Positions 49,429 through 64,000 of a stretch of 64,000 nt of DNA are shown one piece after another. The stretch is taken from NCBI RefSeq assembly GCF_900129705.1, contig NZ_FQWO01000010.1, positions 62,001 to 126,000 of the forward strand, given 5' to 3'. Made by a program: the position numbers and the translations under genes. Position 1 is the first letter of the stretch; each line of letters starts with the position of its first letter. The notes beneath the pieces were generated by a model. That model was given only the letters and a program-made list of their open reading frames with translations. It searched no databases and was not told the origin of the DNA. This DNA comes from Flavobacterium granuli. GTDB lineage: Bacteria; Bacteroidota; Bacteroidia; Flavobacteriales; Flavobacteriaceae.

Positions 49429-52400
49429 TTAATTTTTAACTAGAAGATTTTTGGTGAAAATTTTACCATTTGCTAGAGTCATTCTAACTATATAAATCCC
49501 CTCAACAGTTGGCGCTTTTAAAGTCACTGAATTTTGACTAGTTATTTTATTCTCCATCAAGACACCAATCATATTAAAAACCTCAACATGTGCATTCTGT
49601 AATCTAGAAGACGATACATTAGTAAGTAGCTCATAAGTTGCATCCGGTTTAACAGGGTTAGGTACAATTTTTATGTATTCCTCTTCTACTGTTGGAGATA
49701 AAATTAATGGACAGCTAGTAATTAATGTTCCGTCCAATTTTGTAGCCACTGCATAATAAGTCCCATTAAGAGCACCGCTTTCTTTAAAATATTGATTCGT
49801 TTGGCTTGGAACTAAAACACCATTTTTATACCAAGTATATGATTTAAAACTCTTAGAACTATTGTCAAAGAATATAATATCTTCAAACTGTTTTCTAATT
49901 AAATTTGGCTGACTATTTACTACTGGCAATACCACTAATGGAGCTGCATTATAATTATTATTTCCCGTTTGTGAGGCAGTAATAGAAGCTGAACCGTAGT
50001 CTTTAGAAATTACTGAACCATTTACAACTGCTACAACATCACTATTAGAAGAAGTGTAATTGACAACTAAACCACTATTAGATGTAGCATTTAACAATAC
50101 TGAATTCTGACCATCACAACCTAATGTTATAGCTTGATTCCAAGTAATCAGCTGATCAGCTTTAGTAATACTAAAATCAGTTCCTACATAAGTAATAGTA
50201 TAATTCAAGCCTGCACTCAAAGTACCTTGATTAATAGCATAAACACCTACATCATTCCCAACAGTTCTTATTAAAGATCCTGTAAACACATCACCATTTA
50301 CTAAACTTGGTGAAACGGAATAACTAAAAATTGGATCTATTGTTCCATACACTTTTGTTTGAGAGAAATTAGCCGAAACAGTAATTGGCTTGGCAGTAAT
50401 ACCAAAATCTTTACTTACATAGCTAATAGTATAATTTGAACCAGCACTCAAACTTCCTAGTGTAATAGCATAAGTCCCTACATTCTCTCCCGCATTTCTG
50501 CTTAGCATTCCAGTGAACAAATCGACACCAACTAAACTTGGTGAAACGGTGTAAGCAAAAATTGGATCTGTTGTTCCATACACTTTTGTTTGAGAAGCAG
50601 TAGCCGTAACGGTAATTGGCTTAGCTGTAATAGTAAAATCTTTACTGACATAGCTAATAGTATAATTAGATCCGGCACTCAAACTTCCTTCTGTAATAGC
50701 ATAAGTTCCTATATTCTCTCCAGCATTTCTGGTTAGAGTTCCAGTGAATGAATCGCTACCAACTAAACTTGGTGAAACTGAATAAGTAAAAATTGGATCT
50801 GTTGTTCCGTACACTTTTGTTTGAGAAGCAGTAGCCGTAACGGTAATTGGCTGAGCTGTAATCGTAAAATCTTTACTAACATAGCTAATAGTATAATTAG
50901 ATCCAGCACTCAAACTTCCTTGTGTAATAGCATAAGTTCCTATATTCTCTCCTGTAGCTCTTGTTAAAGCTCCTGAAAAAGTATCGCTTCCTACTAAACT
51001 TGGCGAAACTGAATAAATATAAACAGGATCAACAACACCATACACTTTAGATTGAGAGGCAGTAGCCGTGACTGTAATTGGCTTAGCTGTAATCGTAAAA
51101 TCTTTACTTACATAGCTAATAGTATAATTAGATCCAGCACTCAAACTTCCTTGTGTAATAGCATAAGTCCCTATATTCTCTCCTGTAGCTCTTGTTAAAG
51201 CTCCTGAAAAAGTATCGCTTCCTACTAAACTTGGTGAAACTGAATAAGCAAAAACAGGATCAACAACACCATAAACTTTATTCTGAGAAGCAGTAGCCGT
51301 AACTGTAATTGGCTTAGCTGTAATAGTAAAATCATTACTTACATAGCTAATAGTATAATTAGAACCGGCACTCAAACTTCCTTCTGTAATAGCATAAGTT
51401 CCTATATTTTCTCCAGCATTTCTCGTTAGCACTCCAGTGAACGAATCGCTACCAACTAAACTTGGAGAAACTGAATAACTATAAACAGGATTAACAATAC
51501 CATAAACTTTCGTTTGAGAAGCAGTAGCCGTAACGGTAATTGGCTTAGCTATAATAGTAAAATCTTTACTGACATAGCTAATAGTATAATTAGATCCGGC
51601 ACTCAAACTTCCTTGTGTAATAGCATAAGTCCCTATATTCTCTCCTGTAGCTCTTGTTAAAGCTCCTGAAAAAGTATCACTTCCTACTAAACTTGGCGAA
51701 ACTGTATAAGTAAAAGTTGGATCTGTTGTTCCGTACACTTTTGTTTGAAAAGCAGTAGCCATAACTGTAATTGGCTTAGCTATAATAGTAAAATCTTTAC
51801 TAACATAGCTAATAGTATAATTAGATCCGGCACTCAAACTTCCTTGTGTAATAGCATAAGTCCCTATATTCTCTCCTGTAGCTCTTGTTAAAGCTCCTGA
51901 AAAAGTATCGCTTCCTACTAAACTTGGTGAAACTGAATAAGTAAAAATTGGATCTGTTGTTCCATACACTTTTGTTTGAGAAGCTGTAGCCGTAACGGTA
52001 ATTGGCTGAGCTGTAATCGTAAAATCTTTACTTACATAGCTGATAGTATAATTAGATCCGGCACTCAAACTTCCTTGTGTAATAGCATAAGTTCCTATAT
52101 TCTCTCCTGTAGCTCTTGTTAAAGCTCCTGAAAAAGTATCGCTTCCTACTAAACTTGGTGAAACTGAATAAGTAAAAATTGGATCTGTTGTTCCATACAC
52201 TTTTGTTTGAGAAGCAGTAGCCTTAACGGTAATTGGCTGAGCTGTAATCGTAAAATCTTTACTTACATAGCTAATAGTATAATTAGATCCAGCACTCAAA
52301 CTTCCTTCTGTAATAGCATAAGTTCCTACATTCTCTCCAGTATTTCTGGTTAGCGTTCCAGTGAACGAATCGCTACCAACTAAACTTGGAGAAACTGAAT

Positions 52401-55400
52401 AAGCAAAAACAGGATCAACAACACCATAAACTTTATTCTGAGAAGCAGTAGCCGTAACTGTAATTGGCTTAGCTAAAATATCTGCTGTGGTTGTTGCGGT
52501 CGTATTGACTGTATAGTTTGCTGCATCTGCGCCACTGATGGTGATACCAAAGATACTTACCGTTTTATCTACTCCAACATTCTTGTTATTAAAAGTAGCC
52601 GTTGTGTTCGATACTGATAGTATGTCTCCGTTTACTCTATCATCTGATAATGCTACTGTAGCCATAGTACTGCCGTCGTAAGTTTTATCTGTTGCCGTTG
52701 CTGTTACCGTCAAGGTTCTGGCAGTAACATTAGCGGTGAATGTTGGTTGTAAAATTGTATAGTTAACTGCATCAGTGCCACTTAACATATATCCCGCAGT
52801 AGTGATGGAAATTCCTGTACCTACGTTTGCATCTGCAAAAGTATAAGTTGGTGTACCATTTAAGGAAGCGATATCTCCATTTTCAATACCTGTTAAGTTA
52901 ACTGTACCACTCACTGTCGCTATCTTAGTTGCATCGTAAACTTTATCGACTGCAATTAGCCCAGAAACATTCAATTCTTTTTTCAAGATAATCCCATCAT
53001 TTACAACCAAACTTTCTGGTGCGGTATATTTAGAAGCATCAGTACCTCCAATAGTGTAAACCACCGTAATTGTTTTGCTGGTACCTGCAATTTTATTATC
53101 ATAGGTAGCTTCTCCAGTAACTGTGACGTCATCGCCTGATTGAATCCCTAATAAATCAATATTAGAAACCGAAGCTAGATTAGTACCATTATACGTTTTT
53201 GACTTAGCCAAATTCTGACTATTTACAGTCAAATTAATTTTAGTTTGAACTCGGTACAAAGCGTAAGTATTTCCTGCAACCAAAACAGGGTTAAATGTTG
53301 TTGTAGTTTCGTCTACTACCATTCTGGTATTTGAAGCATCTCCCACTAAATCTGTAAGTCCGGTGCTTCCTGCTTCTGAACCACTAAATAATTTGGCAAT
53401 ACCACTTGATCCAGTAGTAATTATTGGAGTTCCAGACACAAGAATATCCCCACCTGTTTTTACCCCAATATTCTTGCTTTTACCTGCATTAAGAATTATG
53501 GCATTCAAAGAGGAAGAAGTTGTCGTTAAATTTCCTGCCAATGTCAAATTTCCCTCATTGGTAGCAATCTCAATTTCGCCTGTCGCATTTATATCTTCCA
53601 GCGTAAGCGCATTACTATCAAGATATTTGATTGTACCTGTATCAGCGGTTAAACTGTTTATATTATTTCCTGAATTAGAAAAATCATATACAACTCCCGA
53701 GCCCAACAATTCGAGATTATTGGCAGTGATGACACCAGCATAGTTAATAAATGTATTCGAATTAAACGTGATATCTCCACTAAATGGATTTATACCATCG
53801 AAACCTATGGCACTGTTTGTATTTCCAGGCCACTGATTTATACCTGCAACATTTGAGTTAGCGGAAGTACCCTCCAAATTAATCGTTCCAGTTTGAGAAA
53901 CGATTTGTTCTTGTCCTCCTCCAAATAAGAAAATCCCTCCATATTGATTATTAAACCCAGTACTTTTTAATCTTCCCTTAATATCTATAGCTCCCGATAC
54001 ATTTTTTATCATGACTGTGCTATTGGCATTTCCAAAGGAATAAAGTCCTACTCCAGCTCCATAAGTTTGCTCACTAAAGTCTGTTTCTCCAAGAATGGTG
54101 ATTTTACCCGATGTACTTGCAATAGTAGCTGTTGTATTGTCCTCAACCGTTCCCATTAACAATCCATAATGCCAGCTGCCATCATTATTCGTAGCTGTAG
54201 AGATGGCTTTTAAATCTATGTTTCCTGACCCTGAGACTAAAGAGCTTTGTTCCATATAAACCCCATTATAGCCATTTGAGACACCACTCACTCCGTCAGC
54301 GATACCCGAAACGGCTAAATTACCCGCATCTGTATTTACCGATGATTTAAAAAAAGTGATTCCATTTTTGTAATTATTGGTATTTGCTCCAATTGTAAAG
54401 GTGTGTATGGCACTTGCATAAGCACTACCATCTCCGACAGTTAATCCATTCCACGGAGTGGCACTTTGAGTACCTCCACCTATCCATAAATGTCCTCCAT
54501 TTGTAGTGATAGCGCTCTGTTTCAAATAAATAGCTCCAGCCTTATCCTTGTCCGAATCTGACCATAGAACAGTGTTTAAAGCTTTCCCTGAAACTACTAT
54601 AGAACTTCCTGTATTAAACATAATATTCCCAGTAGCTTTAAGAGTAAGAGTTCTTTCTGTACTAAGTGCTCCGCTGATATTGGTAGCTAAAACAATATTT
54701 CCGTTACAAGACTGTAAAATAAGATTTCCTGTATTCTGGAGATAATCAAGGATAACTGAAGCAGGAACTGTTGCATCACCTGCCGTTGTTAAAACACCAT
54801 TGTTAATGGCGTATCCTGCACCAGATGCTATTGTTCCTATTGTAATTGTTCCTGCACAAGGAGGGCTGCTAGTGGTAAAACTCTCCTCATTGCCATAACT
54901 GGTTCCCACACTGTTAATAGCATAGGCTCGTACATAATAAGTAGTAGAAGCATTAAGTCCTGTAATAACTTCTGAAAAAGCACCTGTCCCTGTTCCATCC
55001 TGTACTTTGGTATTTGAAGTGGTTGGATTAGTGCTGGTAGCGTATACAAATCCGCGCTCAGTTACTGCCGCTCCACCATCAGCACTTACTTCTCCACTGA
55101 ATGTAGCTCCAGATGGGGTAATATTCAAAACTGTTAAAGTGGTAACAGTCGATACACAAGCAATTCCACTTCCGGTAGTAGCTACGTTAGTGGAGGTTGC
55201 TCCGCCACCGCCGATGGTTATATTTCCATTATAAGTTTGCACTGCAGTTGGTGTAAACTTCACGTAAATTGGCTGTGAGTAACTTCCTCCTGATTGCACA
55301 AGATTTAGCGTGCTGGTATAGGTACCCCCTGCGGTTGTACTATATGTATATCCAGACAAAGCCCCAACTGTTATGTTAGCTGTTGTTAAATCTGTTCCTG

Positions 55401-57429
55401 AAATAGTGAATGAATTAGGAGCAGAGGTAGTGTTTAAACAAACATTGTCAAAACCGGTAAGTGAAGTAGTTGATAAAGCAGGAGAATTTGAAAGAACAGA
55501 ATTATTAAAAACTAACGAATATACATTCATTTTATAATATCCCAATCTAGTAATACCAGTACCAGTCAACGACATCCTTTTCAGACCAGTATGTCCAGAG
55601 CTAAAAACCGGATCATAATCTAAAACATAAATAAAGCTATTACTTGAATCAACAAAAACATCATTATATCCTGTTTTTTGTTCATTTAATACTAATGTTG
55701 CACTGCCGCCACTGCCTAATGAAACTGCTTTTTTGTATAAGTACCCTTCATTGGTAGAGGATTTGTTCTCCGTCCAATAGGCCGTCCCATTAACTACGTT
55801 GAGCCCTTTTATATAATTAGACGTTGTGTACAAAACAGTAAGACCGGTCCCATCTGTATTACACTGAATTACTTTATATTTAGAATCAGAACATGTATTA
55901 TAAACAAAATATAATTTACCGTTATCATATTCAATATCACCAATGTCGCATAAATCCAACATATCAAAAGATACAGCAGCTTTGCTACTACCATCAAGAT
56001 TTGAAACCTGAATACCTGAATAACCAGAATAATATAGCTTATTCCCTCCAACGGCAACCCCTGTCAAACCGCTCTCATCTGCATTAGCTATAGTACCAAC
56101 TCCAGTCCCATCCAGATTACAATAACTAACATTACTATAATCAGCATTAGACCAATAGATCTTGCCATTTGTTTCATCAATAGCAATGTCAAACCCTTTA
56201 TAAGTATCACTTCCAGATAGCAGGGTATTTGGTTGAGTAACGGTTCCTGTAGTCCTATTTATGTCGGCAGAAAATAATTGTTGGTCAGCATGATCATTGA
56301 CTAAATACATCTTGGTTCCATCAAAATCACTGCCAAGAAGTACTGGCAGGTTTGCAGATGTTGTAGTTGTACTATAAGCAGTAGTTCCTCCTGTAGTACT
56401 AATAACATGAAAAGTTCCATTATAATTTAAACCATTTGTACCGTCCCAAGCCCTAAAATCAAAAGTTGGAGTTCCAACTCCAGTTGGGACAAATCTAATT
56501 TTTGTTTTATTTTGATAAGGGGTAAGGCTGGCATCAGCCAATAAGTGAAGCGCATTTGAAGCACTTACTGATCCAAAATTAGCCCAACTACCCGATCCAA
56601 CTTTGTATTGCCATGTTCCATTTATCGCAGTCTGATTGTAAATAGCAATCCCTCTGGGAACTGCAGTTTGAAAAGTAGTATTACGATCATCTGCATCGGT
56701 AATCAAATGTGCAGTAGGCTCGTTCATATCTACCAATTCATTGATATAAAAACCTTCATTATTAGTATCTGTTGACTTGATAGAACTCAAAGTATTGGTT
56801 AAAGAAGTATTTAAAACCGGCGCGACATTAGCTTGAACCACCATATAATAGTCTTCAACCTCTTCGGCTGTTCCGCAAGCTGTTGCTGTATCAGTTCCAC
56901 CCTTTAACACAAAACGAATTCTTATATTTCCAGGTATAGCAGCTAATTCAGGAACTATCCCACCACCTGTAGTACTGCTGGAATTAGGAGGTACACTTGT
57001 ATTATAATTAAGAAAAATCTCTAAAAGATCATCAAAATCCCCGTCATTGTTCCAATCGGCATAGCCTTTCAAATTAACTTGCTTAGCACTGCCAGTTGAA
57101 TTGTTGATTGAATGAAAGAATGAAGAATAATGGTATTGATTTAAATTACCTGATGATGAACCTAATGTTGCTGTGTAACCACTATTTCCATTAGAAATAT
57201 ATGATTGAGAAGGCGTACCATAATTAAACTGAAGACTATTAATATAAACACCCGTATTGGAAATAGCTGGAGTACAGTAAGTTTGTGCCTTTAACTGCAA
57301 AGAAAGTAGGCAAAATAAGAAAATTAGATTAATAGAAAGTTTTCTATTTGTTAATAAATTCAATTTAGATTTAAATAAAACCCTGAATTGATTTATAAAA
57401 AAAGGGAAGTTTGAGTAGTTTTGTTTCAT
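49429..57429 (-). CDS. Giant type IX-secreted protein with MBG repeats
   Basis: A 2666-residue protein. A signal peptide ends at LQLKAQ (about residue 49). Then follow a GEVED domain (about 90-205, ADWNNDGDFDD and AEEVEDYYMV), a propeller-like region with YWTD-type repeats (about 370-640), an Fn3-like module (about 765-860, STTYYVRAYAINSVGTSYG), a beta-helix-like region (about 870-1310), YDG-type modules (about 1370-1655), ten MBG repeats of 77 residues (1656-2425) and a C-terminal type A sorting domain (about 2590-2666, IVPNPVKPDATYELL and EGIYIVRMTLANGKIF). This is a surface or secreted adhesin-like protein exported by the type IX system. No frameshift is seen in 8 kb. Confidence 0.9.
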   Translation of the reverse strand: MKQNYSNFPFFINQFRVLFKSKLNLLTNRKLSINLIFLFCLLSLQLKAQTYCTPAISNTGVYINSLQFNYGTPSQSYISNGNSGYTATLGSSSGNLNQYHYSSFFHSINNSTGSAKQVNLKGYADWNNDGDFDDLLEIFLNYNTSVPPNSSSTTGGGIVPELAAIPGNIRIRFVLKGGTDTATACGTAEEVEDYYMVVQANVAPVLNTSLTNTLSSIKSTDTNNEGFYINELVDMNEPTAHLITDADDRNTTFQTAVPRGIAIYNQTAINGTWQYKVGSGSWANFGSVSASNALHLLADASLTPYQNKTKIRFVPTGVGTPTFDFRAWDGTNGLNYNGTFHVISTTGGTTAYSTTTTSANLPVLLGSDFDGTKMYLVNDHADQQLFSADINRTTGTVTQPNTLLSGSDTYKGFDIAIDETNGKIYWSNADYSNVSYCNLDGTGVGTIANADESGLTGVAVGGNKLYYSGYSGIQVSNLDGSSKAAVSFDMLDLCDIGDIEYDNGKLYFVYNTCSDSKYKVIQCNTDGTGLTVLYTTSNYIKGLNVVNGTAYWTENKSSTNEGYLYKKAVSLGSGGSATLVLNEQKTGYNDVFVDSSNSFIYVLDYDPVFSSGHTGLKRMSLTGTGITRLGYYKMNVYSLVFNNSVLSNSPALSTTSLTGFDNVCLNTTSAPNSFTISGTDLTTANITVGALSGYTYSTTAGGTYTSTLNLVQSGGSYSQPIYVKFTPTAVQTYNGNITIGGGGATSTNVATTGSGIACVSTVTTLTVLNITPSGATFSGEVSADGGAAVTERGFVYATSTNPTTSNTKVQDGTGTGAFSEVITGLNASTTYYVRAYAINSVGTSYGNEESFTTSSPPCAGTITIGTIASGAGYAINNGVLTTAGDATVPASVILDYLQNTGNLILQSCNGNIVLATNISGALSTERTLTLKATGNIMFNTGSSIVVSGKALNTVLWSDSDKDKAGAIYLKQSAITTNGGHLWIGGGTQSATPWNGLTVGDGSAYASAIHTFTIGANTNNYKNGITFFKSSVNTDAGNLAVSGIADGVSGVSNGYNGVYMEQSSLVSGSGNIDLKAISTATNNDGSWHYGLLMGTVEDNTTATIASTSGKITILGETDFSEQTYGAGVGLYSFGNANSTVMIKNVSGAIDIKGRLKSTGFNNQYGGIFLFGGGQEQIVSQTGTINLEGTSANSNVAGINQWPGNTNSAIGFDGINPFSGDITFNSNTFINYAGVITANNLELLGSGVVYDFSNSGNNINSLTADTGTIKYLDSNALTLEDINATGEIEIATNEGNLTLAGNLTTTSSSLNAIILNAGKSKNIGVKTGGDILVSGTPIITTGSSGIAKLFSGSEAGSTGLTDLVGDASNTRMVVDETTTTFNPVLVAGNTYALYRVQTKINLTVNSQNLAKSKTYNGTNLASVSNIDLLGIQSGDDVTVTGEATYDNKIAGTSKTITVVYTIGGTDASKYTAPESLVVNDGIILKKELNVSGLIAVDKVYDATKIATVSGTVNLTGIENGDIASLNGTPTYTFADANVGTGISITTAGYMLSGTDAVNYTILQPTFTANVTARTLTVTATATDKTYDGSTMATVALSDDRVNGDILSVSNTTATFNNKNVGVDKTVSIFGITISGADAANYTVNTTATTTADILAKPITVTATASQNKVYGVVDPVFAYSVSPSLVGSDSFTGTLTRNTGENVGTYAITEGSLSAGSNYTISYVSKDFTITAQPITVKATASQTKVYGTTDPIFTYSVSPSLVGSDTFSGALTRATGENIGTYAITQGSLSAGSNYTISYVSKDFTITAQPITVTATASQTKVYGTTDPIFTYSVSPSLVGSDTFSGALTRATGENIGTYAITQGSLSAGSNYTISYVSKDFTIIAKPITVMATAFQTKVYGTTDPTFTYTVSPSLVGSDTFSGALTRATGENIGTYAITQGSLSAGSNYTISYVSKDFTIIAKPITVTATASQTKVYGIVNPVYSYSVSPSLVGSDSFTGVLTRNAGENIGTYAITEGSLSAGSNYTISYVSNDFTITAKPITVTATASQNKVYGVVDPVFAYSVSPSLVGSDTFSGALTRATGENIGTYAITQGSLSAGSNYTISYVSKDFTITAKPITVTATASQSKVYGVVDPVYIYSVSPSLVGSDTFSGALTRATGENIGTYAITQGSLSAGSNYTISYVSKDFTITAQPITVTATASQTKVYGTTDPIFTYSVSPSLVGSDSFTGTLTRNAGENIGTYAITEGSLSAGSNYTISYVSKDFTITAKPITVTATASQTKVYGTTDPIFAYTVSPSLVGVDLFTGMLSRNAGENVGTYAITLGSLSAGSNYTISYVSKDFGITAKPITVSANFSQTKVYGTIDPIFSYSVSPSLVNGDVFTGSLIRTVGNDVGVYAINQGTLSAGLNYTITYVGTDFSITKADQLITWNQAITLGCDGQNSVLLNATSNSGLVVNYTSSNSDVVAVVNGSVISKDYGSASITASQTGNNNYNAAPLVVLPVVNSQPNLIRKQFEDIIFFDNSSKSFKSYTWYKNGVLVPSQTNQYFKESGALNGTYYAVATKLDGTLITSCPLILSPTVEEEYIKIVPNPVKPDATYELLTNVSSSRLQNAHVEVFNMIGVLMENKITSQNSVTLKAPTVEGIYIVRMTLANGKIFTKNLLVKN
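50155..52464 (-). repeat. Array of ten 231-bp MBG repeats
   Basis: The interval of 2310 bases is exactly ten units of 231 bases (77 codons). Each unit has the pattern KVYG..DP.F.YSVSPSLVG, then GTYAI..GSLSAGSNYTIS. Two sub-types alternate: TFSGALTRATGEN and SFTGxLTRNxGEN. Several copies are almost identical in DNA, which shows recent duplication or gene conversion. The outermost C-terminal copy is most diverged. Such arrays tend to change length by recombination. Confidence 0.92.
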
Positions 57430-57981: not shown

Positions 57982-58620
57982 ATGGATTTCAGCAGATTAT
58001 TATCTACTTTTGAAGGACAGCCAATAACGCATCAAATGCTGACCAGCATACTGAGTTAATACAAGCGACCTTATGACAAAATCAAAGCACTGAAAGACAA
58101 AGACATAATCAAATCTGTAAAAAGAGGGATCTACATTCCAGGAAAAAACGCAAATATGCGAGTGCCTGAAAGCGGCTTGATTGCCAATCATATTTATGGC
58201 CCAAGTTATTTATCAATGGAAACCTCATTATCTCATTACGGCTTGATTCCAGAACGCGTATATGCAGTAACATCGATGACAACGAAACCTTCAAAAGAAT
58301 TCAGAACTTCGATCGGACTATATAGTTACTCCTATCTTCCACTGCCTTATTTTGCCTTCGGAATTAAGAATGTAATACTTCACGAGAAACAGCAAGTCCT
58401 TATGGCTTCGCCGGAAAAAGCACTCGCCGATAAAATAGCAACAACATCAGGAGTTATACTTAGAAGTATGAATAATGCTCAAAATTATGTTTTCGAAAAT
58501 CTTAGAATGGAACAATCCGATTTAAAAGACTTTAATACCACTGAAATGCGTTCCTGGTTATCAGATGCACCAAAAAAAGAGAGCTTGGAAATACTAATAA
58601 AAATGATAGAGAAATTATGA
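57982..58620 (+). pseudogene. abiEi: AbiEi-like antitoxin gene with a nonsense codon
   Basis: Starting from ATG at 57982 the frame reads MDFSRLLSTFEGQPITHQM, reaches TAA at codon 26 (58057-58059) and continues in the same frame as YKRPYDKIKALKDKDI, IKSVKRGIYIPG and beyond to 58620. The joined protein would have about 212 residues and fits the AbiEi antitoxin (winged-helix N-terminus, then LSHYGLIPERVYAVTSMT). The internal ATG at 58156 could still give a truncated 154-residue protein without the DNA-binding part. It overlaps the toxin gene by 4 bases. Confidence 0.75.
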
Positions 58621-59282
58621 TAAAAGAATGGCTTGAAAGTTATAATCCTAAAAACAAAGAAGAAGCACAATCAGCACTTCGAGAAATCATGCAAGAAATT
58701 GCACTTGCAGGACTCCAACGCTCGAACTTTTTTGACAAAGCGGCTTTTTATGGAGGAACGGCATTGAGAATATTCCATAACCTCGATCGTTTCTCCGAAG
58801 ACCTTGACTTTTCATTATTACAAACAGAACAAGATTTCTCCTTAGAAAAGTACCAGCATGCAATTGTAAATGAATTTGCATCCTTAGGAATGACCGTAAG
58901 TATAAGTGAGAAACAGAAAGTGAAGCAGAATAATATCAATTCAGCCTTCCTAAAATCTGAAACCCTTTGGCGTGAATTAAAATTGGAAACTATCATACCT
59001 CAAAATGGTCTCGATACTAAAGCCAACATAAAAATCAAGATCGAGGTAGATACAGAACCGCCTTTAGGTTTTAAAACAGAAGAAAAACTTCTTGTAAAAC
59101 CTTTCTCCTTTTACGTCAAGTGCTTTACTCTTCCAGACCTCTTTGCTGGTAAGATGCATGCACTGCTATTTCGGAAATGGGGAACTAATGTAAAGGGACG
59201 TGACTGGTACGATATGGAATGGTATATCAAAAAAGGGATTAAACTTGATCTTGGTCATTTCCCCCGCTACCGCACGAAATGA
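58617..59282 (+). pseudogene. abiEii: AbiEii-like nucleotidyltransferase toxin, truncated by insertion
   Basis: The protein has the AbiEii/AbiGii core FYGGTALRIFHNLDRFSEDL with D-x-D (DLDF) and the later KMHALLFRKWGTNVKGRDWY segment. AbiEii enzymes are nucleotidyltransferase toxins of type IV toxin-antitoxin systems. Translation ends at 59282, after about 221 residues, which is short for the family (about 300). The last six codons (PRYRTK) come from the left inverted repeat of the RAYT element at 59261. The remaining 3' part is not found after the element. It is probably inactive. Confidence 0.78.
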
Positions 59283-59981
59283 AATTCAGCGAAGCTAATC
59301 CTTTCGTGTGGTTCATTATCGTTAAACATTATACATTCTAAAGACTACTACATCGTCAATTAATCCTTTTTGCCCCGAATAATCTATGGCACTACTATAT
59401 ACATAATCTTCTGCTTTATAAACTAAACCTTCTTCTACAGGATTATTATCTACATAATCTATCTTTTGTTGAATAACCTTATTGCTCCATAGCTCAATTG
59501 GTTTGTTATCGTGTCTCCAAAACTGATAATGCTATACATTAGAACTCTTTTCTGCTTCTTTTTTAAAAAAATCCAACAAGAACTCTTTTCTACTTTCTCT
59601 TGGATTTTCTCGAATGCTTTTTACAATTGATTGACTAGTAAACCTTTTTAAATCACCAATCAATAATTCCGGTTTTTGATCATTTATACTCCTAAAAACC
59701 AGATGTACGTGATTACTCATTATACACCAAGCATGAATTTCTAAACCTTTGCTTTTTTTGACAAAAAATTAAACTCTCTAAAAACAAATCTTTATATTCA
59801 TTCCTCGTAAATACATCCAACCAAGCTACCACTGCAAAGCTTATAAAATACCATCCCTCTGGATTGTGAAATTTATAATTTCTACTCATAATTATTAGTT
59901 TTTACACAAATTTTGCACTTTAATCACGAATCACACGAAAGGATTAGCTTCGCTGAATTTCATTTCGTGCGGTAGCGGGGG
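59261..59981. mobile_element. RAYT-type element with 50-bp perfect inverted repeats
   Basis: The ends 59261-59310 and 59932-59981 are perfect inverted copies of each other over 50 bases. They contain CCCCCGCTACCGCACGAAAT at the outer end. Inside lies a decayed RAYT (Y1/IS200-like) transposase gene on the minus strand. The total length is 721 bases. It interrupts the abiEii gene on the left and a different gene on the right, so the insertion was accompanied by a deletion or rearrangement. Confidence 0.8.
59322..59889 (-). pseudogene. RAYT (REP-associated tyrosine transposase) pseudogene
   Basis: The minus strand reads MSRNYKFHNPEGWYFISF, then FTRNEYKDLFLESLIFC, followed by a frameshift in a run of A and then GLEIHAWCIMSNHVHLVF in the other frame. 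The HVHL motif is the metal-binding HUH-type signature of Y1 transposases. After a TAG stop at NV the frame continues HYQFWRHDNKPIELW and KIDYVDNNPVEEGLVY to the end. So one frameshift and one nonsense codon have destroyed the gene. The intact protein would be about 190 residues. Confidence 0.8.
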
Positions 59982-60185
59982 CACAAATAAATTTTCAGAT
60001 TCTGTTAATAGCTCGCCATCATATCCTCCAGTATTCACATCCTCTCCATAAGAGAATTGCAAATGTCTTATAGAATTAAAATCTATTGTTGCTACAATTA
60101 GTTTCCTTATCAGTTACGGAAGATAATATTTGCATTCTATCGTGTCCGCCCAATTCTCAATTTCTCCTGTAGTAATAAGTCTCAT
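59982..60185 (-). pseudogene. 5' fragment of a broken gene
   Basis: On the minus strand ATG at 60185 begins MRLITTGEIENWADTIECKY, then YLP, a TAA stop, and LIRKLIVATIDFNSIRHLQF, YGEDVNTGGYDGELLTES up to the RAYT inverted repeat. This pattern (an N-terminal region with a GGYDGE-type segment) is known to me from N-terminal domains of larger proteins, but I cannot name the family. The rest of the gene has been lost at the element. The gap 60186-60313 is AT-rich and empty. Confidence 0.55.
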
Positions 60186-60313
60186 AGTAAGTTTTATATA
60201 TATTTAAACTAATTTATTTAGGTTTATTGATTGCTATCAATCACAAATTTTAAATATTTTTTTGGTGGTCATGAATTTTATTTCATTGTTCGTTCTTCGC
60301 ACGTAACTAAAAC

Positions 60314-61117
60314 TTAACTGTTAGCAACGCTATTGTATTCAATAACTGGAATGTCGCCTATATTATCTTTTACAGCAGCTTCAATTTCTAATTTATGTTT
60401 TGTCGAAATATTTTTTCCTAAAATAATTTTATTAAAAGCTTCACGAGGTAGTTTAATTTGACGATCAGTTATTTTAGCTGGTGATTCCCAAAACATATGT
60501 GTTCTATATTCTTTTTCAAAATTCCATTTAATTTCTTTTGAAAAAATTTGACTAGTTCGAATTTGGTGCCATGACATTATTGGTTCCGGCAGTAAAATAG
60601 GCAACTGTTCTAAATAACTTACAGCACCTCCACCTCCTAAGTGTTCAAACATTATGCGAGAATTATAGCCAATACAGAAACCTTTTGCTGAATTTGCATA
60701 TTTTTCCCACATGGCATCTAGAAACGGTTCAGCAGTTAAGCTTAAGACACCTAATCGGGTATCATGTTCCTCGCTATAAAATTTGTGATAGTCATCTAAA
60801 TATGCCTTATTCTTTAAAAGTTTTTGCTTAGTCCATTCTCTAATATCTTTTCTATGCTGTTGCCTTGTAAAATGTGGATTTGCCATTTTGGATAGTCGCA
60901 TAGCAAATATCATTGTTTGTTTTTCATTAAGCAGATCATAACGTACAGGGATTTTACAATCGACTTTATCTTCAAAAGAACTTGGAGCAGCCAAATATAC
61001 TTCGCGATTTTTTATGTACCGGTCGTGGTAACTGTAATTCCAATCTCTATATTTATAGACTACTGCGGGAAATTCCCCATCATCTAATGTTCCATGATAT
61101 ATACTAGTGATTTCCAT
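60314..61117 (-). CDS. DUF2971-domain protein
   Basis: A 267-residue protein with YKYRDWNYSYHDRYIKNREV, YLAAPSSFEDKVDCKIPV, LGVLSLTAEPFLDAMWEKYA, AKGFCIGYNSR and KWNFEKEYRTHMFW. These are the conserved blocks of DUF2971. Proteins of this family are often found near defence or mobile genes, but their function is not known. It is read on the same strand as the STAND gene, 205 bases apart. Confidence 0.85.
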   Translation of the reverse strand: MEITSIYHGTLDDGEFPAVVYKYRDWNYSYHDRYIKNREVYLAAPSSFEDKVDCKIPVRYDLLNEKQTMIFAMRLSKMANPHFTRQQHRKDIREWTKQKLLKNKAYLDDYHKFYSEEHDTRLGVLSLTAEPFLDAMWEKYANSAKGFCIGYNSRIMFEHLGGGGAVSYLEQLPILLPEPIMSWHQIRTSQIFSKEIKWNFEKEYRTHMFWESPAKITDRQIKLPREAFNKIILGKNISTKHKLEIEAAVKDNIGDIPVIEYNSVANS

Positions 61118-61322
61118 AAATAATATTTCCTAAGGTTGGTTCGTCTAAAAATCTTCAAACGAACTTTATCTTGTTAATTAGAATGTAGATATATTAATTT
61201 AAGTTACAATTGTTTTTCTTTTTTAAAACTGTATCCGGTTCCGTTCAACACGGATGTCATTGTTCGTGCTGCTCACACAACGAAGCCTTAGTGTTAGCTC
61301 TCGTTATTTCTTTAATTCTAAA

Positions 61323-64000
61323 TTAATCGTCATTTTCTTTAAAAAGTTTTTTCATATCGTCTTCAAGAAATTTATAAATCCAATTTCTAATTACACAGTA
61401 TTCATCAACTTTTGATGTATTAATCTTATCAACCGTTTGCACGGGATAACGAGCATAATCATTAACACATAATATTGCGTCTAGTGAAAATGTCCTTAAA
61501 CATTTAAGGCTTTCTTTTCCAAAAGCTTCTCCCGATTTACTAGTATCTTTAAAATAAATTTCAAATTTACCGGTTTGAGAGGGGCGATAACCGAAAGTTC
61601 CCCATTTAAGCACATCAGATTCTTTCATATAAAAGATATATTCATGGGGGATTGCTGTATAAAATGGGAATTCATCTTTAAAGGTTGGAAAGCAATATTC
61701 AACAAATTCTTTATAACAGATTTCTAAATGTTTAAAAAACTCTGTAATGTACAGTTTCGCTTGTGATTCACTGTATTGTACCATTCTAATTTGATTAATG
61801 TAATTCTTTCTGTTTTGTTCATAGAACTTTTTAGTTTCAATTATTGACGCGTCTGGAAGGGGCAGGTAATGTTCTTTGATTTGGTCGTAGCCTCTTTCTA
61901 ATAATATGTCTACAATTTTACTTAATTCTTCAAATGGAGGAACATCACCTGTTGTATTGTATTCCGGAATTTTACGATTTTCTTTCAATGCATTTTCGAC
62001 GATTTCATTTATAAGGTTTTGTTCCATAGGTTCATACCTATAAAATTCTGTGAGTTTGAACTTATTTATTCTGAGATTTAAGTCTTTCAAATCTATAGGA
62101 TAAATACTTTTGAATCTGGGCAGATAATATTCCTCGATGCTAAATTCATAGTCAAGTTTTTTGTAATAGTAATAAAGAATTACGGAAACTTGTTCAAGAA
62201 GGAGAGTATCGGAATTATAGACACTAATTCTTCCTTTTTCAATTGTCTTTTTTAATTGTTTGAAAATATTATTCTTGATAACTGTACTTTGGTCTTTGAC
62301 AAATAAAGAAGTATTACTTCCATAGATTGTTTCAACACCCATTTGCAATATAGTATTTGTTTCATAAGGAGCATCGAAACTCAAATCTTCGTATGCAGTT
62401 ATATCATTTGATTTTGAATCCAGAGGGAAGAGACCATAACCATCATTGTTGATGAGATCCTTTGGCATTACTATTCCAATATTACCATTTGTCTGTGGAT
62501 CAAATTTATTTTTGAATTTATTAAAATTATCCTCTAAGTATAAATTATAACCAAGAACATAACTAAGAGCTTTGTCCTTCTTGAATTTGATCAAAACGTT
62601 TAGATGAGAAGAACTAGCATTTTCGATGTAAAAATCGAGAGCACTTTTGCCTATGTGATTTTGATAGAAATCACATAAAACAGTATAAAATTCATCATTT
62701 GTTAATTTATCTAACCGATACGAATGAAAGCATATTATATAGTCACGGATTTTTGAATAATAGAATGAGATATTGTACGAGTCCTCATTGTTAGATTTGA
62801 TGAGTATATTTCTGGTAAATAAATCTTCAGGGATATTTTCATCAAGAGAAAAATTTAATTTTTCAAGTATATGATTCACATCTAAACCTTCATCTTTATA
62901 AGCTTCCAAAGAAGTATATTCATGATTAAGAATAATATTTCCAATTGCAGAAAGCGTCCTTAGGCTCGACAACAAACCAATAGTTGTTTCTTCGAGCGAT
63001 TGTTTTAAATATTTTTTTATTAGTTCTTTATCATTTATTTTTTCAGGTATCAGTTTACCGCAATAAACTTCACTAAATATTTTTAAAAAGAACCCATTTC
63101 TTAGTTCTTTTAATAACGAACTTGAGATTACTCCTTTGAAACCGAATTCATTTTGGTACAAGGGCAGAACACTGTTTAATTCTTCATCCGTAAAATCAGT
63201 TAAAAGGAATCCTGGATTATTTTCTAGACTACTGATTCTATTGTGAGATTTACTTAACTCGTCGTAAAGATGGGTTGGTTTATTCTTGATTTTCAATATT
63301 GTGTTCCAAATATTGGATTTGCAACTAATTATTATTTTGACTCTATCTGAATTTTTAGCTACTAAGGCCATTTCACTTAATTCATGAGTGATATTTTGAT
63401 TAGTACATTCGTCTATTGCATCAATAAATATTAGAACATTTTTGTTTGCATACCTACCTAATTCATCAAGTTTTTTTAGAACAATATCAGTTTCGGTTCT
63501 ACTGGAAAATGCAATATTCAGATCTTGAGAAATGCATTCTAGTGGTGAGTTGAGAATAGCGGCATTGTAAAAAAAAACAAATGTATTTTCTAACTTTTGA
63601 AGTGCCAATGAGCATATTGCATTTGTTTTGCCGACTCCTGCCGCTCCGACCAAACCAAATATAGATTCATCAGAATTTATGAAATCCTCAAATACAATTT
63701 GTAGCTCTTTACGTTGAACATAAAGTTCTTTAACAAATTTGGAAAATGGACTATCTATACTCCCGATAATCTGTCCCATTCTGTCTCGAACCTGCGATTC
63801 ACAAAAGACTTTTAAATTTTCTGGAGATAAGGAAATAAAGTTTTTGAGTGCTTCATATCTAATCCTTATTTCTTCCTCTGTAGAAAGTACGTAACCATTT
63901 TTCCAAAAAGATGATTGACCAGAGATCTTGCCTGAAAGTTCTTCTCTTGAAACTGAATCAAAAATCCTTGTTATTTTTCCATTAGTTACTATTGTAAATG
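61323..64000 (-). CDS. STAND/NACHT-type NTPase, 5' end beyond the window
   Basis: The gene is read on the minus strand and its 5' end lies past position 64000. An internal ATG at 63779 gives 818 residues, but the same frame stays open for 73 more codons to the window edge. The upstream part (FTIVTNGKITRIFDSVSRE, STEEEIRIRYEALKNF) resembles the C-terminal strand-helix of Mrr-like restriction-endonuclease domains. Then follow Walker A GAAGVGKT (45-52 counted from the internal Met) and Walker B VLIFIDAIDE. The long remainder is helical. This is the layout of Avs-like STAND defence proteins with an N-terminal effector. The effector type is inference from few residues. Confidence 0.7.
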   Translation of the reverse strand, partial: FTIVTNGKITRIFDSVSREELSGKISGQSSFWKNGYVLSTEEEIRIRYEALKNFISLSPENLKVFCESQVRDRMGQIIGSIDSPFSKFVKELYVQRKELQIVFEDFINSDESIFGLVGAAGVGKTNAICSLALQKLENTFVFFYNAAILNSPLECISQDLNIAFSSRTETDIVLKKLDELGRYANKNVLIFIDAIDECTNQNITHELSEMALVAKNSDRVKIIISCKSNIWNTILKIKNKPTHLYDELSKSHNRISSLENNPGFLLTDFTDEELNSVLPLYQNEFGFKGVISSSLLKELRNGFFLKIFSEVYCGKLIPEKINDKELIKKYLKQSLEETTIGLLSSLRTLSAIGNIILNHEYTSLEAYKDEGLDVNHILEKLNFSLDENIPEDLFTRNILIKSNNEDSYNISFYYSKIRDYIICFHSYRLDKLTNDEFYTVLCDFYQNHIGKSALDFYIENASSSHLNVLIKFKKDKALSYVLGYNLYLEDNFNKFKNKFDPQTNGNIGIVMPKDLINNDGYGLFPLDSKSNDITAYEDLSFDAPYETNTILQMGVETIYGSNTSLFVKDQSTVIKNNIFKQLKKTIEKGRISVYNSDTLLLEQVSVILYYYYKKLDYEFSIEEYYLPRFKSIYPIDLKDLNLRINKFKLTEFYRYEPMEQNLINEIVENALKENRKIPEYNTTGDVPPFEELSKIVDILLERGYDQIKEHYLPLPDASIIETKKFYEQNRKNYINQIRMVQYSESQAKLYITEFFKHLEICYKEFVEYCFPTFKDEFPFYTAIPHEYIFYMKESDVLKWGTFGYRPSQTGKFEIYFKDTSKSGEAFGKESLKCLRTFSLDAILCVNDYARYPVQTVDKINTSKVDEYCVIRNWIYKFLEDDMKKLFKENDD

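Follow-up and report, generated by a model that had tools for sequence, protein, structure and literature searches.

The 721-nt feature at positions 59261-59981 of the window (the whole 64,000-nt stretch of Flavobacterium granuli DNA that was analysed) is likely a decayed transposable unit, composed of a RAYT gene and two cognate inverted REP hairpins. The window copy is an ordinary decayed member of its family. The behaviour of the family is less ordinary: judged from sequence comparisons, this RAYT seems to transport itself, enclosed by its own REPs.

A broken RAYT gene between two long REP hairpins

The unit comprises the following features.

59261..59981, minus strand (the RAYT strand): REP-RAYT-REP unit, decayed copy, 721 nt, delimited by its inverted ends, a sister copy in contig C14 and flank homology that stops at both edges
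59261..59314, plus strand: left end, long-form REP with a C-run, a GCTACCG foot and a hairpin with an extra inner stem
59322..59889, minus strand: RAYT (TnpA_REP-type HUH-Y1 transposase) pseudogene, the end at 59322 set by alignment to the C14 copy
59928..59981, minus strand: right end, long-form REP in inverted orientation, with a G-run terminus on the plus strand

The arms at 59261-59314 and 59928-59981 are inverted copies that match at 53 of 54 nt, and each folds singly as a hairpin (the left arm also when folded on the opposite strand). Unrelated pairs of 220-nt windows from other loci reached a maximum score of 13 (n = 60, +1 per match), and the match between the arms is far above chance. 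Relative to the intact C14 copy, the enclosed gene is disabled by one frameshift and one nonsense codon. The original prediction, made from the window alone, had described perfect 50-base inverted repeats around a RAYT gene with exactly these two lesions; both points were confirmed, the first 50 nt of the arms being perfect.

The window copy itself is broken, and the HUH and Y---NP motifs were found in its intact relatives. N59 H60 x H62 and Y155 x x N159 P160 are invariant across seven of them, the C14 copy included, and the intact RAYT copies keep the HUH and Y1 residues. The intact C14 protein (198 aa) passes the NCBIfam model REP_Tyr_transpos (NF047646; 81.5 bits, cut-off 80), and its nearest solved structure in an alignment-based search is the E. 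coli-type TnpA_REP 4er8 (E 3.6e-4). The IS200 transposase model NF033573 scores 25.2 bits on the same protein, below its cut-off of 55. Plasmid relatives of the RAYT amounted to six records only, all at 42% identity or less, and none was found in the phage records searched. A reading of the gene as defence cargo was discarded, with no PADLOC match.

The sister copy in contig C14 (5523-6259) retains an intact RAYT; aligned over 722 columns, it is 92.7% identical to the window unit and differs by 15 substitutions. The 54-nt long hairpin of the window recurs at the C14 right end, and the C14 left end is a short hairpin without about 20 inner nt. Across the genome, six matches to the 31-nt core of the ends were found with at most 3 mismatches, and the 14-mer foot occurs at seven sites with at most one mismatch, two in the window and five in C14; further copies of the 50-base ends and an intact RAYT, proposed earlier as checks, are thereby both present. 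Three of the C14 foot sites are solo right ends that carry a piece of the RAYT 5´ region. Two solo right ends (C14 near 2785 and 13896) share an identical left junction with half a REP in otherwise unrelated surroundings, and this common junction at unrelated places suggests two copies of one small derivative.

The intact C14 RAYT also contains a 30-nt in-frame insertion (11 residues, about DPSLKGELAKQ; L009:5836-5874) that is absent from the window copy. The repeat of about 31 nt that makes up this insertion occurs in many genomes of the genus and once in F. granuli. It was present in 11 of 18 fetched regions (at most 4 mismatches), sometimes in frame within longer ORFs, and folds no better than shuffles. 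Further along C14 (L009:6585-9791) lies a pair of genes that are nearly identical (300 nt at 97%); they start with MEVICKEEQLRFVGGSGGYTW or with a short extension before it and resemble a secreted-peptide leader.

Inverted REPs are the rule in Flavobacteriia, and two long ends are rare

A family sample was drawn by scanning the contigs of the best 80 of 357 relatives, which yielded 79 loci. In this sample an inverted repeat between the RAYT flanks, with a score of at least 14, was observed in 65 of the 76 scorable loci. The repeat is CCCC-GCT[ACG]-CCGCACGAATCCTTTCGTGTGG or a close variant. Both REPs were found in 77 of the 96 collected gene pieces (at most one substitution in the 12-nt foot). 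Seven of the 96 rows were left out of all subsequent copy and pair counts (L191.0, L191.1, L192.0, L193.0, L194.0, L194.1 and L196.0); six of these are repeat records or a contig-end twin, and L196.0, whose duplicate status is unproven, was removed alongside. Both REPs, in inverted orientation, then flank 71 of 89 RAYT copies.

The earlier view that such long perfect ends are unusual holds for their length but not for their presence. A long hairpin at both ends occurs in only two of the 71 two-REP copies, the window copy, with the longest perfect arm pair of the set (50 nt), and L074 from Chryseobacterium sp. VAUSW3, with the next (42 nt). Inverted REP ends themselves are the rule in the 76 scorable loci, as they are in the available part of PMC2817692. 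The inner stem of the long form reads AGC/GCT in F. granuli and GAC/GTC in seven other aligned genomes, a compensatory difference of two base pairs; row L094L of this alignment, which is misplaced, is disregarded.

The variable base of the foot is the same at both ends in 51 of 71 copies, compared with a mean of 24 and a maximum of 40 in 10,000 shuffles. With swaps allowed among near relatives only, the mean rises to 42 and the maximum to 50 (949 samples), which suggests that most of the agreement reflects shared descent; the rest is modest evidence for homogenisation of the ends. Whether the long perfect ends of the window copy arose by gene conversion between the ends or were inherited as a long/long pair is evenly poised. 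All five right ends of the F. granuli lineage are long and the C14 left end is short, and the window left end is long with an inner sequence that is otherwise of the left type. The foot-base agreement points the same way when set against the unrestricted shuffles, but its excess over the near-relative null is modest, and a deletion in the C14 left end would account for the same difference. In addition, the window right end carries a private change at position 51, so that a conversion would predate this change. The window left end may well have acquired its long form by conversion between the ends.

Movement of the unit and homogenisation of both its ends, as originally proposed, both appear plausible. 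The recency then attributed to the movement is not supported, given 15 substitutions in 685 nt plus indels relative to the sister copy and two disabling changes.

The unit lies between two truncated genes

Three features adjoin the unit or belong to the interrupted gene pair.

57982..58620, plus strand: abiEi (antitoxin) with an in-frame stop, partner of the truncated abiEii (by-eye comparison with L134 ORF 611-1249)
58617..59260, plus strand: abiEii (type IV toxin-antitoxin, nucleotidyltransferase), 3´ part missing, cut at the element (Pfam AbiEii 2-177 of 238; PADLOC AbiEii; intact relative L134, 284 aa)
59982..60185, minus strand: 5´ fragment of an unnamed gene, 68 codons, one in-frame stop, cut at the element (comparison with G344 L149:1532-3232)

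In the best reading of these flanks, the window unit now occupies the junction left by a deletion in which abiEii and a second gene were truncated. The abiEii homology ends at the left edge of the element, where 217 of the 284 codons of the G073 protein have been matched. F. granuli itself retains residues 1-217 only, and a search of its genome found the missing 3´ part neither 3´ of the element nor elsewhere. The right-hand gene is 94% identical at the amino acid level to G344 L149:1532-3232 over its first 70 codons, and its homology ends at the right edge. The remainder was not found in the F. granuli genome (1-70 of 567 only), and the fragment had no match in Pfam or PADLOC. Different truncated genes had been predicted on the two sides, and this is what abiEii on the left and the 68-codon fragment on the right represent. 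The genes point towards each other with the element in the middle, so that both truncations are accounted for by a single deletion spanning their junction or by recombination between two units. The in-frame stop in abiEi indicates that the abiE pair as a whole has decayed.

The earlier description of an element inserted in abiEii is accurate in that the abiEii homology stops at the edge; abiEii is not otherwise complete, however, and its 3´ part is absent beyond the element. The suggested comparison with an uninterrupted abiEii likewise yielded intact relatives of each flanking gene separately, but a joined empty site was not found. We infer the order of events at abiEii. Recombination between two units in direct orientation, one in abiEii and one in the right-hand gene, with deletion of the intervening DNA, is a tentative account of the junction, somewhat short of an even chance. 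Both gene fragments end at the element edges and neither missing half is present elsewhere in the genome, as such an event would leave them, but a single insertion followed by a deletion from one edge gives the same picture.

The surroundings of the unit (window 57982-63779) form a defence-type neighbourhood, with the decayed abiEi/abiEii, a DUF2971 gene (PADLOC PDC-S31) and an 818-aa NTPase with a weak Avs2/nSTAND match. A predicted surface protein of 2666 aa with many near-identical repeats (ITVTATASQTKVYGTTDP...) is encoded at window 49429-57429 on the minus strand.

Homology between copies stops at the REPs

Mobility was assessed by aligning pairs of copies together with their flanks; some flanks are shortened by contig ends, and the pairs are not independent. 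Among the 438 pairs from different loci with at least 80% identity, 432 have no common flank and six have one (e.g. L109/L112). In six of the seven pairs at 95% or above, homology runs 1-12 nt past both REPs before it ends. This overhang is usually 4-6 nt long and corresponds to the C/G-run, suggesting that this run belongs to the unit. At 85% or above (n = 63), homology ends at both REPs in 25 pairs and falls short of the REP edge on one or both sides in 34, often where REPs vary; 3 pairs extend past one side and 1 past both.

Same-genome copies whose homology ends at both REPs were observed in five other genomes, at 95.6-100% identity.

L099 (MAG): 100%
Chryseobacterium rhizoplanae L086/L092: 98.8%
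C. gwangjuense L077/L084: 98.2%
Uncultured Flaviramulus L119: 97.4%
Winogradskyella tangerina L132: 95.6%

Four of these five pairs lie within 8 kb on one contig, a closeness that leaves some room for local duplication mechanisms. In a search of the genus, 89 of 398 genomes contained a RAYT relative at E 1e-60 or better. In 40 genomes the relative reached 1e-85 or better, and 5 of these 40, including G341, had two. The two copies of G341 were not counted as a true duplication; their flanks are identical to the contig ends (L192:1-127), and they are probably an assembly duplicate. L119.0 and L119.1, 235 nt apart, were rejected as separate copies and are pieces of one gene.

Target-site duplications were no commoner than chance, with words of at least 4 nt occurring in 2 of 71 copies, where shuffled flanks predict 2.2. 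A search of 398 genomes for a clean empty site of the L056 element, whose neighbours are moaA and an M28 peptidase gene, found none; six regions were examined. The region is rearranged and G358 matches its right side only, and it was rejected as proof either way. The element lies at about the same place in four species (L056, G417, G300 and G282), which suggests that some copies are also inherited. The description of RAYTs as single-copy, immobile and vertical does not fit this clade. The window unit, too, may have moved at some point before it decayed, in trans or autonomously, which are indistinguishable for this copy.

The same limits of homology would also arise if the RAYT did not transpose and the REP-RAYT-REP block spread by homologous recombination with REPs resident elsewhere, including after horizontal transfer. 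REPs near many RAYTs, and arrays of them in some genomes, would provide places for such exchange. We nevertheless consider this unlikely. All seven foot sites in the F. granuli genome (at most one mismatch of the 14-mer) lie in RAYT-derived pieces, abiEii and the right-hand gene run on as coding sequence without a REP in relatives, and a 30-nt repeat offers little homology for recombination. A chance local inversion or duplication unrelated to transposition, as the origin of the inverted ends, has only the perfect arm match in its favour and would have confined the repeats to this place; it is refuted by further copies, since the same ends recur at five further sites in the genome and in dozens of species, always of one type around this RAYT clade.

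Shortened derivatives and a second RAYT clade

Inverted REP pairs spaced 45-420 nt apart were found fifteen times in 90 loci, some of them overlapping. The derivatives in L026, L055, L059 and L121 still contain the ends of the RAYT gene, and L026 fuses its first and last about 70 nt. These REP-bounded gene-end pieces are what look like internally deleted transposon copies. Two candidates were rejected: L064_3591_3879 is part of the L064 element itself, and a short site at window 4182, obtained with a loose pattern, is a chance match in what is seemingly coding sequence, without a hairpin.

A second RAYT clade, at 45-53% protein identity, was compared in forty regions. An inverted repeat above the control maximum was present in 37 of 41 flank pairs, with the REP consensus GCT[AG]GCGCGAGCGTCCCGCTCGTG, which is unlike the REP of the first clade. 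Pairs of at least 80% identity lack a common flank in 227 of 229 cases, and one of the two exceptions consists of two pieces of one locus. The one-contig genome G320 contains two second-clade copies (96.0%), the homology of which stops at the REPs. By these comparisons the second clade, with its different REP, behaves alike. A second-clade REP (CACGAGC...GCTCGCGCTAGC) at L009:13840-13880 directly adjoins the small first-clade derivative.

Relation to known systems

In the available parts of the cited papers, RAYTs are always located between two inverted REPs (PMC2817692), are single-copy and vertical (PMC8049555) and show "no evidence of tnpAREP mobility" (PMC8266576). RAYT duplication and RAYTs at novel chromosomal sites have been described in pseudomonads (the available part of PMC3686654), so RAYT relocation as such is not new. 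As the literature in its accessible parts mostly calls RAYTs single-copy and immobile, the mobility of the unit is the notable point. No report of unit mobility in Bacteroidetes was found in the open-access literature searched; the RAYT-group survey of Bertels 2017, which is outside that scope, may bear on it.

The arrangement resembles RAYT/TnpA_REP with its REPs, or REPtron, as described in the available parts of Nunvar 2010 (PMC2817692) and Quentin 2018 (PMC6006769): the same HUH-Y1 family (NF047646), a gene between two inverted REP hairpins and a REP type matched to the RAYT clade. It differs in its near-identical second copies and in cross-species homology that stops at the REPs, compared with the single copies and lack of mobility in those parts of the literature. 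The foot here is on the outer side, GCT[N]CCG, with the C/G-runs outside. REPs are also few, and the 7 sites in the F. granuli genome (at most one mismatch) fall short of the expected abundance, which lowers the claim of an active REP population and leaves the gene-family claim unaffected.

Within the Quentin 2018 scheme, subclass 2.6 (Bacteroidetes, atypical structures) is similar in lineage, in NHVH and Y[IV]HNNP, in a length of about 188 aa and, apparently, in REPs without a fixed 5´ GT[AG]G, a placement by motif alone without a tree against the Quentin set. The NH[LIV]H motif of this subclass appears as NHVH and its YIH[QN]NP as YVHNNP or YIHNNP in six of seven rows, with YTHKNP in L024/L025 off the pattern. 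In place of WQ, the W is followed by R or W and not Q (FWRHDN or FWWHDN, the presumed corresponding W being assigned by eye). The REPs of F. granuli have GTAG at the 3´ foot and other copies GCAG or GGAG, compared with the GT[AG]G consensus of typical structures.

TIRtrons/TIRYTs (Di Nocera 2013, PMC3733652) similarly place a tyrosine transposase gene between long inverted repeats, some of which are partly self-complementary; in contrast, the repeats here are REP hairpins, and the GGGGWSAS motif is absent from the ends (by eye). IS200/IS605 elements share the Y1 transposase fold family, end hairpins, the lack of target-site duplications (71 copies against shuffled flanks) and multiple copies in some genomes. 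They differ from the present unit in having non-inverted ends, and the present proteins have the Y-NP motif of TnpA_REP and reach 25 bits against the NF033573 cut-off of 55. The derivatives of 143-258 nt are inverted REP pairs with a short spacer, like REPINs in the available part of Bertels and Rainey 2011 (PMC3116915), but at four loci remnants of the RAYT gene ends persist in the spacer.

Proposed mechanism and significance

With some reserve, we favour the view that Flavobacteriia have RAYTs that remain autonomous transposons, in two or more clades whose REPs differ, that REP-RAYT-REP moves as one unit with the REPs as its ends, and that the REPIN-like repeats are internally deleted derivatives. 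In this mechanism the transposase would bind the REP hairpin on single-stranded DNA, make a cut at the outer foot of both REPs and transfer the intervening strand to a new site, as IS200/IS605 transposases do. The intact C14 copy could still act on both units in the F. granuli genome. The window copy is dead as a gene, and it lies where a deletion or a recombination between two copies would have taken the 3´ portions of the two genes that converge there.

The persistence of immobile RAYTs and the origin of REPs and REPINs are stated as open questions in the available parts of PMC3116915 and PMC8266576. If the proposed behaviour is true, flavobacterial RAYTs would represent a still-living stage between IS200/IS605 elements and the immobile RAYTs described in proteobacteria. 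A self-carrying RAYT family would then be the missing autonomous form and would allow direct tests of how ends are recognised, how the unit transposes and how REPINs are born.
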